Position numbers and translations under genes: made by a program
In this document: piece after piece, positions 20,151 through 49,040 of the stretch
How positions within the stretch are numbered: the first letter of the stretch is position 1
How the letters are laid out: each line of letters starts with the position of its first letter
The notes under the pieces: generated by a model
The model's database searches: none
Seen by the model: only the letters and a program-made list of their open reading frames with translations
What the model was told of the DNA's origin: nothing
DNA from: Anaerobranca gottschalkii DSM 13577
Lineage (GTDB): Bacteria; Bacillota; Proteinivoracia; Proteinivoracales; Proteinivoracaceae
Direction: 5' to 3'
DNA length: 64,000 bases
Assembly (NCBI RefSeq): GCF_900111575.1
Contig: NZ_FOIF01000007.1
Location: forward strand, 1-64,000

Positions 20151-20182
20151 AAAAAAATAAAGGGAATTTCTCCCTTTATTTT
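20151..20182 (-). terminator. rny terminator
   Basis: A 12-bp stem, AAAATAAAGGGA (20154-20165) with TCCCTTTATTTT (20171-20182), loop ATTTC. It overlaps the rny stop, with T-rich sequence after it on the minus strand. Confidence 0.85.
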
Positions 20183-21726
20183 GCATATTCTACAACTCTA
20201 GTTTCCCTTATTACTGTAACTTTTATTTGACCTGGATATTCCAGTTCATTTTCGATCTTTTTAGTTATTTCTCTAGCAATGTTTACTGCTAAAGTGTCAT
20301 CAATTTTATCTGGTTTTACCATGATTCTAATTTCACGACCTGCCTGTATAGCAAAGGATTTTTCTACACCATCGAAAGATTCTGCAATTTCCTCCAATTT
20401 TTGTAAACGTTTAATATAGTTTTCCAATGTTTCCCTTCTCGCTCCAGGACGGGCAGCAGAAATAGCGTCAGCAGCTTGTACAATAACCGCTTCAATAGTT
20501 TGGGGTTCTTCATCACCATGATGGGCAGCAATACAATGAATAACTTCAGGACTTTCTTTATATTTTTTGGCAAGTTCTGCACCAATAGCCACATGAGGTC
20601 CTTCAACTTCATGATCCACTGCCTTGCCAATATCATGTAATAGTCCACCTCTTTTAGCTAATTTAACATCGGCATTTAGTTCAGCAGCCATTACACCAGC
20701 TAAATGGGCTACTTCTAAAGAGTGTTTTAAAACGTTTTGACCATAACTAGTTCTAAATTTTAAGCGTCCTAATAGTTTTATGAGTTCTGGATGGATTCCA
20801 TGAATACCAGCTTCAAAGGTTGCTTGTTCTCCTTCTTCACGGATCTGAGCTTCCACCTCTTTTTGTGCTTTAGCTACCATTTCTTCTATGCGACCAGGAT
20901 GAATCCTTCCATCAACAATTAGCTTTTCTAAAGCAATCCTTGCAATTTCCCTCCGTATAGGATCAAAACCAGATAAAATAACAGCTTCAGGTGTATCATC
21001 GATAATTAAATCAATACCAGTTAGTGTTTCTAAAGCCCGAATATTTCTACCTTCTCTACCAATAATTCTACCTTTCATTTCATCATTAGGTAGTGGAACA
21101 ACTGAAACCGTTGATTCAGCCACATGATCTGCTGCACAGCGTTGAATAGCTAATGAAATAATATTTCTAGCTTTCTTTTCCGCTTCTTCTTTAGCTTGTT
21201 CCTCTACTTCTTTAATCATCATGGCCATTTCATGTTGAATTTCTTTTTTAACATTAGAAAGTAAAATTTCTTTAGCTTCAGATGTCGTTAATGCGGAAAT
21301 TCTTTCAAGCTCTTTAATTTGTTGAAGTTGTATATCTTCCAAACTTCTTTGTAACTCAGCAATTTCCATTTCTTTCTTATTCAAATTTTCTTCTTTTTTC
21401 TCTAGATTTTCAATTTTCTTATCTAGAGTTTCTTCTTTTTGAATTATTCTCTTTTCAAGCCTTTGAATTTCCAATCTTCTTTCTTTACTTTCTTTTTCAA
21501 ATTCACTTCTTAATTTAAGAATATCTTCTTTAGCTTCAAGTATTATTTCCCGTTTTTTACCTTCAGCTTCTTTTTTAGCTTCTTCAATTATTCTTAGAGC
21601 TTCCTGTTCTGCTGAAGATATTTTAGCTTCAGCTATCAATTTTCTGATTATATAACCAATACCTAGGGCCGCGACCCCTACTGAGATTGTTACTATAATT
21701 TGAGTAGTTTGGTTAATTGTGTTCAC
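20176..21726 (-). CDS. rny: RNase Y, membrane-anchored endoribonuclease
   Basis: About 516 aa. One N-terminal membrane helix, a long coiled coil (about 35-200), a KH domain ([15 protein letters not shown], near 220), and an HD domain ([10 protein letters not shown], near 365) that cuts single-stranded mRNA to start decay. The start is unclear: the frame opens with GTG (21724-21726), but that GTG is inside the perfect ribosome-binding site AAAGGAGGTGA. The only well-spaced candidate, 8 nt after GGAGG, is a non-standard ATT at 21715-21717. Upstream lie a sigma-A promoter and an attenuator-like leader, so expression is probably regulated in cis. Confidence 0.95.
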
Positions 21727-21740
21727 CTCCTTTATAATAT

Positions 21741-21769
21741 AAAAAAATTAACCGAGTAGCCCCAGTTAA
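21741..21769 (-). terminator. Attenuator-like hairpin in the rny leader
   Basis: Minus-strand RNA: TTAACTG, loop GGGCTACT, CGGTTAA (7-bp stem, one G-U pair; plus positions 21748-21769), then T7 (21741-21747). It ends 10 nt before the rny ribosome-binding site, so readthrough is needed for rny expression from this promoter. Confidence 0.6.
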
Positions 21770-21833
21770 ATAGGATAATAACTAATATATTATTAATTAA
21801 AATATCCAATTTTCTTTTATATATAAAAGCACA

Positions 21834-21841
21834 GGGCTACT
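21834..21841 (-). promoter_or_regulatory. Anti-loop segment AGTAGCCC in the rny leader
   Basis: AGTAGCCC in the transcript is perfectly complementary to the 8-nt loop GGGCTACT of the downstream terminator-like hairpin (loop 21755-21762). It lies about 20 nt from the predicted transcript start. Pairing could make a pseudoknot or compete with the hairpin. Confidence 0.5.
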
Positions 21842-21869
21842 GTTTTTTTTCTTAATTTTATACATTAAT

Positions 21870-21898
21870 ATTGTATATTTTTTGAAATACCATGTCAA
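21870..21898 (-). promoter_or_regulatory. rny promoter (consensus sigma-A)
   Basis: On the minus strand TTGACA (21893-21898), a 17-bp spacer and TACAAT (21870-21875). This predicts a leader of about 135 nt before rny. Confidence 0.8.
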
Positions 21899-26614: not shown

Positions 26615-28087
26615 CTATAAACCTTGAATGATATTTCTAAATTCATCTCCAGAAATTGTTTCATTTTCTAACAAATAATTTGCTAACTTTTCTATTAACC
26701 CTTTTTTATTTAACAGTATTTTTTCTGTTTCTATTTTTACATTTTCTATTATAGTTGTTATTTCTTTATTTAATACCTCTTTAGGCAAAATATTGCAATT
26801 AGTTGTTCCTAAATCACTTAATCCACAATCAATAATTTTTTTTGCCAAACTAATCGCTTGATTAAAATCATTGGTGGCCCCAGTACTGAATTGATCAAAA
26901 AATACCTTTTCTGCCATAGCTCCAGCCACTGTTACAGCTATTGTTTTGAGAAGAGATTCCTTAGTTTCTAATAAATTTTCACTATTAACTTGCCTCATAT
27001 AGCCTAAAGCTTGTCCCCTAGGTGCTACTGTAATAGAAGCTACAGAGTTAGGACGATATAATTCACTAATAAAACCATGACCAACTTCGTGTATAGCAAT
27101 TCTCTTTAATTCTTCTTTTGTAGGAACTCTATCAATTTTTTCACCCATTATTACTTTTTCTATGGCATTTAGAAAATCTTGTTGGGTAATAGTTAGCCTA
27201 TTATTTCTCAAAGCTAATATAGCAGCTTCGTTAGTCACATTTTCAAGGTGTGCTCCAGAAAAACCAAAGGTTTGTGCAGCGACTTTTTCTAAATCTACAT
27301 CATCCCCTAAAGGTTTATTCTTTGTGTGGATACGCAAGATTTCTAAACGGCCCCATTTAGATGGCAAAGGAATATTAACTATCCTATCAAATCTACCAGG
27401 TCTCAATAAAGCATCATCTAATAAATCTAAACGGTTTGTAGCAGCCATTACTAGAATTTGAATATCACTAGATTTTAAACCATCCATTTCTACTAACAAT
27501 TGATTAAGGGTTTGATCATATTCCATATGGGAAGAGTTACTACCTCTTTTTACTCCCAAGACATCGATCTCATCAATAAAAATTACTGCAGAATTCTTTT
27601 TTTCTTTTAATGCTAACCTTTTTGCATCAGCAAATAACTTTCTAACCCTTTTGGCACCAACACCTGCATACATTTCTACAAATTCTGAACCAGAAGTTGC
27701 GATAAAAGCCGAATTAGTGTATTTAGCTGCAGCCTTTGCCAATAAAGTCTTTCCCGTTCCTGGAGGCCCTTGAAGTATTATTCCTTTTAACGGTCTTATA
27801 CCTAATTTCTTTACTAAATCTTTATTAACTACAAATTCTAATGCTTCCAAAAGTTCTTTTTTAGCTGTTTCTTGCCCCCCTATTTGGTCAAAATCGATAG
27901 TCAGTATTTTTTCATTTTTAGGGGACTCTATAGTAGATTCTATAAAGTCGGCAATTTGATTTCTATAAACTAAAAATAAACCAACAGCAGCCAATAAAAC
28001 AAAAGGAAAAATATTAACTCCTTTTATTAATAAAATTATGATAATTGTTAACAAGGTACCAATAGTTAGTTCTTTAATTACCATCAC
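26615..28087 (-). CDS. FtsH-like AAA+ zinc metalloprotease, short form (490 aa)
   Basis: Two closely spaced N-terminal membrane helices (about 8-40) anchor an AAA+ domain: Walker A GPPGTGKT (107-114), pore loop EMYAGVGAKRVRK (138-150), Walker B AVIFIDEIDVLG (167-178) and LLRPGRFDR. The peptidase domain has HEVGH (333-337) and the third metal-ligand region GATNDFNQA. It lacks the extracytoplasmic loop and is shorter than housekeeping FtsH (about 600-650 aa), so it is a paralogue of unknown substrate. It overlaps the upstream membrane-protein gene by 14 bp. Its terminator has been interrupted and duplicated by the 271-bp element. Confidence 0.88.
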   Translation of the reverse strand: MMVIKELTIGTLLTIIIILLIKGVNIFPFVLLAAVGLFLVYRNQIADFIESTIESPKNEKILTIDFDQIGGQETAKKELLEALEFVVNKDLVKKLGIRPLKGIILQGPPGTGKTLLAKAAAKYTNSAFIATSGSEFVEMYAGVGAKRVRKLFADAKRLALKEKKNSAVIFIDEIDVLGVKRGSNSSHMEYDQTLNQLLVEMDGLKSSDIQILVMAATNRLDLLDDALLRPGRFDRIVNIPLPSKWGRLEILRIHTKNKPLGDDVDLEKVAAQTFGFSGAHLENVTNEAAILALRNNRLTITQQDFLNAIEKVIMGEKIDRVPTKEELKRIAIHEVGHGFISELYRPNSVASITVAPRGQALGYMRQVNSENLLETKESLLKTIAVTVAGAMAEKVFFDQFSTGATNDFNQAISLAKKIIDCGLSDLGTTNCNILPKEVLNKEITTIIENVKIETEKILLNKKGLIEKLANYLLENETISGDEFRNIIQGL

Positions 28088-28595
28088 TATTCCCCCCCTC
28101 TATATAATAAACATCAAAAAAGATATTAGAATCTATCTCATATTTAATTAATAATTGATTATTTTCTACTAAAAAATAATAATTGTTTTCTCCTAGTAAT
28201 TCATCTAAGGCCCTCATAGCTCCGGTATAATTTTGGGTATTTAAAGTTTCAGAAATAATACCATTTACTCTCCAATATTTCTCCCATCCTTCAGAATCTT
28301 CTTTAGGAACTGGATTGTTATATTTAATCCTAAAATTATCTTTTAACACTCTTGATAAAGCCTTTTCTATTTCACGATGAATAGTTATAGGATTATTATA
28401 GTTTTCTAAAGTTATTTGTACACTAGTTGAATTGTTTTCTTCTTCTACCTCAAAAGCTAAAATTCCTTGATGTTTTTCCAGGATATTTAAAAGTGGTTTC
28501 TCTACCGTTAACTTTGCAAATATAGTATTAAATAAAAAGAAAATCAGCAACCCTATTAAAGTAATTACTGCAATTAAACCCCAACGAATTTTCAT
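28074..28595 (-). CDS. Membrane-anchored hypothetical protein, 173 aa, paired with the FtsH-like gene
   Basis: Unrecognised. One N-terminal membrane helix (about residues 5-27), then a roughly 140-aa soluble domain with mixed alpha/beta pattern. The start ATG at 28595 has GAGGGG (28603-28608) about 7 nt upstream; the frame extends further but without a site. The 3' end overlaps the FtsH-like gene by 14 bp, so the two are probably coupled. It could be an adaptor or partner of the protease, by position only. Confidence 0.7.
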   Translation of the reverse strand: MKIRWGLIAVITLIGLLIFFLFNTIFAKLTVEKPLLNILEKHQGILAFEVEEENNSTSVQITLENYNNPITIHREIEKALSRVLKDNFRIKYNNPVPKEDSEGWEKYWRVNGIISETLNTQNYTGAMRALDELLGENNYYFLVENNQLLIKYEIDSNIFFDVYYIEGGNSDGN

Positions 28596-28686
28596 AATAT
28601 AACCCCTCTCTAGTTTACATAATATCAAATTTTCTTTTAAATTATAGCACAATTGTAATAAAATTGTAATGTAAACTTTTGGACAT

Positions 28687-28713
28687 AAAAAAAAGAGGAT
28701 TATTTTGATCCTC
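28687..28713 (-). terminator. pgsA terminator
   Basis: Arms GAGGAT (28695-28700) and ATCCTC (28708-28713), 7-nt loop, followed by T8 on the minus strand. Confidence 0.88.
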
Positions 28714-29287
28714 CTTTTTTAATTACCTTTATATTTTTGTAGAAATAGTCAATACCTGAAAATATTGTTAAAAATACGGCAATATACAATGTAATCATAG
28801 CTATTGTATCAATATATAAATTGTTTAATATCCATTTAAACAAAGGTATATCTATTTCTGTTAGTAGACCGGCATGAATAGTAATGGCAGAGATTGCTAC
28901 TATTTGGCTAATAGTTTTTAGTTTTCCCCATTTACTAGCTGATATAACTATTCCTTCTCCTGCTGCGATAACCCTTAATCCTGTAACAGCGAATTCTCTA
29001 CTGAGAATTATAAAAGCAATTAAAGGGCTAATTTCTTTCATCCAAACTAATGCAAATAATGCAGCGGAAATTAACAGTTTATCAGCTAGAGGATCTAAAA
29101 ATTTCCCAAAATTAGTTACTTGTTTGTGCTTTCTTGCGATGTAACCATCTAATCCATCTGTACTGGCAGCTATGATAAAAAAAGCTGCTGCTATAAGTTG
29201 ACCAAAGGGTATTCGCACTACAATTAAGACAATAAATATAGGTGCCAAAAATATTCTAGCTAAAGTAATTTTATTGGCTAGATTCAT
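28700..29287 (-). CDS. pgsA: PgsA, CDP-diacylglycerol-glycerol-3-phosphate phosphatidyltransferase
   Basis: A 195-aa polytopic membrane enzyme making phosphatidylglycerol phosphate. The CDP-alcohol phosphotransferase motif is DGLDGYIARKHKQVTNFGKF then LDPLADK, the D(x)2DG(x)2AR(x)8G(x)3D(x)3D pattern, near residues 44-70. Several hydrophobic helices follow. The start overlaps the rimO end by 17 bp and uses GGGGAG within rimO, so translation is coupled. The rimO-pgsA neighbourhood continues into cinA and recA as in many Firmicutes. Confidence 0.95.
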   Translation of the reverse strand: MNLANKITLARIFLAPIFIVLIVVRIPFGQLIAAAFFIIAASTDGLDGYIARKHKQVTNFGKFLDPLADKLLISAALFALVWMKEISPLIAFIILSREFAVTGLRVIAAGEGIVISASKWGKLKTISQIVAISAITIHAGLLTEIDIPLFKWILNNLYIDTIAMITLYIAVFLTIFSGIDYFYKNIKVIKKGGSK

Positions 29288-48769: not shown

Positions 48770-49040
48770 CAGACTGAAAACAAACTATAGACAAAGTCAT
48801 CATCAGCTGTGGTAATTAAACAAAGATACGATTAAGTTGAGGAGATAGATTTAAGAGCTGATTAGATAAAAGGAAGAAGGGGTGAGGAACAGGACGTTCC
48901 GAAAGCTCTATTGAGCCATGGACGGCGAATTAGAGCGGTACCCTTCTTCCTTTTAGATAGAAGCCTTAAATCTCGACGTAGAACTTTGTTAGAATGTTTA
49001 ATTACTACAGCCTTTAAAAAATGACTTTGTCTACAAACTG
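48770..49040 (-). mobile_element. 271-bp non-coding palindromic element, copy B
   Basis: The same element as at 26302-26572, in the opposite orientation, exactly 271 bp, with about nine substitutions and no indels by my count (about 97% identity). It starts CAG and ends CTG on each strand and contains no ORF of note. It fills the gap between the YflT-like gene and dpaA. Direct repeats of 24 bp flank it, each a terminator hairpin. Near-identity of the copies and imperfect flanking repeats suggest fairly recent movement with some decay since. Confidence 0.9.

Follow-up and report, generated by a model that had tools for sequence, protein, structure and literature searches.

A candidate transcription attenuator in the leader of the RNase Y gene, rny, of Anaerobranca gottschalkii and its relatives

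RNase Y, a membrane-bound enzyme, starts mRNA breakdown in many Gram-positive bacteria, and the locus considered here raises the question of how the synthesis of this enzyme is set. In the window (the whole stretch of DNA that was analysed, 64,000 nucleotides of Anaerobranca gottschalkii DSM 13577), the rny gene lies on the minus strand (TIGR03319 match, 800 bits) and follows a leader of about 135 nt, at the end of which a terminator and a T7 run stand directly ahead of the rny ribosome-binding site. A first-pass annotation of the window had proposed an attenuator-like leader, and the promoter, hairpin, T7 run, anti-loop, and Shine-Dalgarno (SD) sequence that it named are all in place, base for base. 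On the minus strand, TTGACA (21898-21893) is separated by 17 nt from TACAAT (21875-21870), and transcription of rny probably begins near 21863. As expected of an attenuator, the promoter and then the intrinsic terminator are both found upstream of the start codon in one transcript (Table 1).

Table 1. Features of the rny locus in the window, with what each rests on.
Feature	Position	Strand	Basis or remark
Promoter of rny, TTGACA-17-TACAAT	21870..21898	-	common to relatives
P0, small 5' hairpin, ACAG-UAGCC-CUGU in the minimum free energy (MFE) fold	21831..21843	-	fold; compensatory change in counterpart hairpins of relatives
P1, 5' strand of the putative long-range antiterminator helix, AGUAGCCCUG (the anti-loop of the first-pass annotation)	21832..21841	-	sequence and fold
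AU core, CUUUUAUAUAUAAAAG, a perfect 8-nt inverted repeat with the UUUnnAUAUA motif common to other rny leaders	21814..21829	-	
P2, internal hairpin, GGAUA...UAUCC	21773..21807	-	fold; P2-like helices in relatives
P1, 3' strand, UGGGGCUACU, within the terminator hairpin	21755..21764	-	sequence
Terminator hairpin, UUAACUGGG-GCUA-CUCGGUUAA	21748..21769	-	terminator at the same place in 11 of 13 class genomes
U7 tract of the terminator	21741..21747	-	sequence
Shine-Dalgarno sequence of rny, AGGAGG	21726..21731	-	sequence
Probable AUU start codon of rny, 8 nt past GGAGG	21715..21717	-	
rny (RNase Y) coding sequence, from the AUU start	20176..21717	-	GTG at 21726 in the mechanical ORF list

The hairpin had been read as TTAACTG (21769-21763) and CGGTTAA (21754-21748) around an 8-nt loop, GGGCTACT (21762-21755), ahead of T7 (21747-21741), the loop being perfectly complementary to an upstream anti-loop, AGTAGCCC, at 21841-21834 (all on the minus strand). 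The complement is indeed perfect, but the loop is smaller than claimed: the terminator stem is two pairs longer (TTAACTGGG-GCTA-CTCGGTTAA, with nine pairs, a 4-nt loop, and then seven U), and part of the "8-nt loop" thus belongs to the stem. The partner of the anti-loop (AGUAGCCC, 21841-21834) is GGGCUACU (21762-21755), and two wobbles lengthen this pairing, which we call P1, to 10 pairs reaching 21832/21764. Since the formation of P1 takes away the upper terminator stem, the two structures are mutually exclusive, and the competing helix uses the 5' half of the terminator. The annotation had foreseen either a pseudoknot or a disturbance of the terminator; exclusive folds favor the disturbance, while a pseudoknot, with terminator and loop pairing present together, is less likely because P1 uses stem bases besides the loop. 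We therefore prefer to view the pairing as an antiterminator helix by which the terminator 5' half is opened, rather than as an added pseudoknot.

In RNAfold predictions for the window leader, the MFE structure is the terminator form and the centroid is the anti-loop form, with a z-score of -2.8 against shuffles. An 8-nt exact complement of the hairpin arose in 46 of 3000 dinucleotide shuffles of this leader and the exact anti-loop in 16 of 3000, and the duplex energy of the leader 5' region with the terminator half was not significant in the window alone (z -0.4). A weak match of the leader in its own genome (L002) covers 34 nt and is AT-rich. The single-sequence evidence for the pairing in this AU-rich window is therefore modest and suggestive only, and the case consequently rests on the relatives.

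Within the class, 11 of the 13 sampled genomes carry a promoter, about 80-110 nt, a terminator, and an SD ahead of rny, and the same 11 keep a 5' segment that pairs with the terminator 5' half with compensatory changes, in a set with few independent sequences, of which the window has one of the most divergent. The 5' segment reads UGCCCCUGGUGGCA or AGCCC..GGCU in families f2, f3, and f4, opposite a terminator 5' half of GCCAGGGG or similar; these partners differ from AGUAGCCC/GGGCUACU of the window, but the complementarity is kept. Reading the P1 changes by hand from the alignments, we found one position that is A-U in the window, L005, and L024 and U-A in L016 and L025, and a second that is C-G in f2 and f3, U-A in L024 and L005, and U-G in the window; in L025, the 5' run is one C shorter and the 3' run is one G shorter. 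P0 also shows a compensatory change, from U-A in f2 to A-U in f3 and f4. When the tight pairing segments were exchanged among eight class representatives, the mean energy went from -18.4 kcal/mol for own partners to -15.9 kcal/mol for swapped ones, with 71 of 20000 permutations as good; the corresponding swap of whole 60-nt regions within the class was not significant (4232 of 20000). The first-pass annotation had staked its proposal in part on conservation of the loop and anti-loop in relatives, and there the pairing is preserved by compensatory change, which, together with the mutually exclusive folds, supports an attenuator-like leader. The two remaining genomes, L006 (G004) and L007 (G003), of one genus and the same family, have the promoter and no terminator before rny. 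Their leaders still hold a helix, AGGUUAUA/UAUAACCU.

We then have the wider set of rny upstream regions, 111 loci in all, including some near-duplicates, with named records from Pelotomaculum, Thermincola, Desulforamulus, Dethiobacter, Sporomusa, and Pelosinus. By a permissive scan, a consensus promoter followed by an intrinsic terminator precedes rny at 92 of the 111 loci, 81 of them outside the class. In the 83 leaders that were long enough, the 5' end of the transcript pairs with a stretch running into the 5' arm of the terminator with a mean z-score of -3.1, and for a dereplicated set of 52 leaders outside the class, the energy was -26.1 kcal/mol with own and -16.9 kcal/mol with swapped partners (z -15.9, 0 of 20000). 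RNAalifold on the wide alignment returned the terminator only, and P1 was therefore counted directly, on a structure that we named ourselves, in an alignment of 19 Desulfotomaculum-type leaders. For P1 and the core hairpin in these 19 leaders, 85% of cells were paired, compared with 36-57% when the structure was slid, and eight pairs had changed on both sides, compared with 2.8 in shuffles (0 of 500). The overlap of P1 with the terminator amounts to three alignment columns (211-213) in Desulfotomaculum-type leaders and to about ten nt in the class of the window. The terminator sequence CCGAGnnnnCTCGG before rny (L009-L119) is kept across distant lineages to a degree that intrinsic termination does not require.

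Between the two P1 strands, a small hairpin and the UUUnnAUAUA motif are found. A motif search with random starts in the leaders from outside the class returned a 5' motif close to GGGAGAAAAUAGAAUU and then the motif tgGgUUUaaUAUAUAUa, in about two thirds of these leaders. In held-out class leaders, tgGgUUUaaUAUAUAUa matches beside P0 in the window (p 0.0135), its congener (0.0035), L008 (0.0025), and L033 (0.02); L005 fails, and the other f2 leaders score elsewhere. Across 56 leaders, replacing the upstream sequence by a swapped (0 of 300) or shuffled (0 of 200) one weakens the stem that precedes the motif, and the core sequence is kept beyond what pairing needs. The conserved 5' 16-mer is absent from the window leader, which, judged by its sequence, looks like a compact and divergent member of the wider rny-leader design.

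How closely is this element tied to rny? A covariance model, R1, built solely from four f2 leaders and covering the terminator, P0, and the internal helices while leaving out P1, recovers leaders of f3 (E 5e-7) and f4 (E 1e-6) that had been held out, finds the right place in L005 with an E of only 0.7, and does not match the window leader. Over 299 genomes of the phylum, all strong R1 matches lie before rny, and the weak ones (E 0.01-0.1) have no rny adjoining. The 16-mer has 11 matches in the 299 genomes, seven of them before rny; the other four, which do not adjoin rny, apparently lie inside or opposite other coding sequences, so that all seven matches outside other coding sequence precede rny. 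By both searches, the element was found only before rny. At gathering scores, Rfam 15 gave no match for the window leader or for 20 rny loci, and nothing sensible at a relaxed threshold; a T-box or other known Rfam leader family was thus rejected for want of a covariance model match. Elsewhere in the window, at 48837-48984 on the plus strand and between two minus-strand frames, there is an Rfam TwoAYGGAY match (44.6 bits, cut-off 43). No attenuator before rny was found in the open-licence PubMed Central literature that we searched, and the earlier remark that no rny leader of this design had been described agrees with Rfam 15 and with that part of the literature. As far as sequence comparison goes, the putative switch is conserved across many clostridia-like lineages.

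The promoter, the terminator, the covarying P1, the shared core, and the position before rny are all seen by comparison, and we regard an attenuator architecture for the rny leader as highly probable. By computation, only one of the two folds can form at a time, and their energies lie close together. While the terminator 3' arm has yet to emerge, 9-13 nt of the terminator half are predicted to be paired to the 5' segment in the class leaders examined; in the full leader, the difference between the states ranges from -8.3 to +3.3 kcal/mol in the class and is -2.7 kcal/mol in the window (-0.4 at 55 °C). We propose that the 5' segment would pair with the terminator 5' half once that half exits the polymerase, that the P1 so formed would block the terminator and let transcription enter rny, and that if P1 were prevented or broken, the terminator would form and transcription would stop ahead of the ribosome-binding site. 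We infer that such a leader would be a poised switch, antiterminated by the order of synthesis and terminated once P1 is disturbed. The signal would most likely act on the AU-rich core between the P1 strands, and RNase Y, by binding or cutting that core, might lower its own synthesis; this direction of switching, the signal, and the autoregulation are interpretation on our part. RNase Y is the likeliest single signal because of the exclusive link to rny, because in B. subtilis the cleavage of the rny 5' UTR and early ORF serves autoregulation (PMC10303841), and because RNase Y prefers RNA that is low in GC and little folded (PMC11780869). Against it stands the membrane location of the enzyme, which makes acting on a nascent leader within seconds demanding, and we hold RNase Y as the signal only tentatively. 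Taken together, a cis-acting transcription attenuator with P1 as the antiterminator, the AU core as the signal site, and RNase Y as the likeliest signal is the explanation that we favor, with a measure of confidence well short of certainty. Against it count the weak evidence in the window, the failure of R1 to match it, the absence of a terminator in L006 and L007, and the small overlap of P1 and terminator in the wide set.

The same attenuator might instead answer to another sensor: a small molecule, an RNA-binding protein, or the transcription machinery itself (polymerase speed or pausing) acting on the P0/AU core, in which case the supply of RNase Y would follow mRNA synthesis. Metabolite riboswitches usually recur ahead of several genes, whereas this element is found only before rny, and Rfam offers no riboswitch match; on the other hand, the core is conserved beyond pairing needs, and in B. 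subtilis rny mRNA is bound by RNA polymerase, with a genetic link of rny to RNA polymerase genes also cited (PMC11077062). A different sensor is thus a serious possibility, if not the one that we would choose, and of the rivals to RNase Y as the signal, a link to the transcription machinery is the foremost. The leader might also carry no signal at all: a constitutive partial terminator would only reduce transcription of rny and block read-through arriving from recX, and the 5' pairing would fix how much read-through occurs. A terminator and an antiterminator of near-equal energy would give a fixed fraction, and together with a weak start codon this would suit a gene kept low; however, the promoter sits downstream of recX and upstream of the terminator, and a fixed level needs no long structured leader with a conserved core, so we consider constitutive termination improbable.

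Chance might have produced the loop/anti-loop match of the window, leaving only the terminator as real. Other families of the class retain the pairing with different sequences, L005 retains it with U-G and U-A changes, and the AU core motif derived from outside the class matches at the right spot, all of which weigh against coincidence, despite the frequency of 8-nt complements in the shuffles (46 of 3000), the ordinary whole-region duplex energy (z -0.4), and the R1 miss in the window; we judge it very improbable. Attenuation by translation of a leader peptide, for which the window leader does hold a 22-codon frame (MYKIKKKNSSPVLLYIKENWIF), hardly merits belief: its ATG lies at the inferred transcription start with no SD, and the frame in the congener L004 meets TAG after eight codons. 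We rejected a leader-peptide attenuator, as the frame, broken in L004 and lacking an SD, is not a conserved translated ORF.

A further question is where rny translation begins. In the window, AUU (21717-21715) lies 8 nt past GGAGG, and the sole canonical codon nearby, a GTG, overlaps the SD; as a start, this GTG is formally possible. At the 89 loci with a clear SD, the in-frame codon 6-10 nt past the SD is ATT in 43, ATC in 10, ATA in 8, a canonical start in 20, and none of these in 8, so that AUU, AUC, or AUA stands at normal SD spacing at 61 of the 89. Ten loci lack any canonical start in the interval from the preceding stop to the conserved N-terminal motif, and in rny loci with an ATG, it lies at about the same SD spacing. 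On these counts, rny appears to start at AUU (or AUA or AUC) rather than AUG in most lineages sampled, the window included. The pattern is rare among the long frames of the window, to which this control was limited, and rny is the clearest case. A frame at 28074-28718 on the minus strand has only ATA and ATC as SD-spaced start candidates. The terminator 3' arm and U tract, GGUUAAUU (21741-21753), are complementary to AAUUAACC (21711-21723) over the AUU start region, and therefore the freed arm could cover the start in antiterminated RNA; L004 retains this complementarity via a G-U pair, and it was not seen in other families. We found no report of a non-AUG start of rny in the open-licence PubMed Central literature searched.

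Several genes combine a non-AUG start with a strong SD, among them infC and pcnB of E. coli. In S. aureus, infC, cvfC1, and ccpN do so (PMC13009471), and pcnB of E. coli is cited as such there. Like these genes, whose products are held low (PMC13009471), rny has a strong SD followed by AUU or AUA at normal spacing; unlike them, rny is not named in PMC13009471, and AUU, AUC, or AUA is found in most of its lineages sampled. If confirmed, the non-AUG start would imply widespread mis-annotation of the rny 5' end and a gene whose translation is held weak. It is conceivable, although on balance unlikely, that an undescribed dedicated RNA family attenuates rny in clostridia-like Firmicutes by sensing, on the nascent leader, how active RNase Y is (or how transcription and decay are balanced), with the AUU, AUA, or AUC start as a second brake that couples translation to IF3.

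The logic of terminator and antiterminator is already known, while the RNA family and its target are without description in Rfam 15 and the open-licence literature searched. Riboswitches and T-boxes form mutually exclusive terminators and antiterminators, the latter built with the terminator 5' half, and the rny leader resembles them in both respects; it differs in having no known aptamer, T-box element, or Rfam match, and in that its target is an RNase. In enterobacteria, RNase E controls its own synthesis through hairpins of the rne 5' UTR, acting on the stability and translation of its mRNA. Both leaders belong to the main decay endonuclease and are suspected of reporting the activity of that enzyme, but the rne leader has no terminator switch, the sequences are unrelated, and the rny leader has no Rfam match. 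If our reading is true, a conserved attenuator before rny in many lineages would add conditional transcription to the ways in which the level of the decay enzyme is set; the leader would offer a short RNA for the mutational study of a candidate sensor of RNA-decay capacity, and how cells set the amount of RNase Y would become testable. The closest comparison is B. subtilis rny (PMC10303841), the same gene, likewise with a consensus promoter and a long regulatory 5' UTR (164 nt there). The contrast lies in the mode of control, which in B. subtilis works through cleavage and decay of the gene's own mRNA, with no terminator or attenuator mentioned, whereas here a terminator is set against a competing helix.
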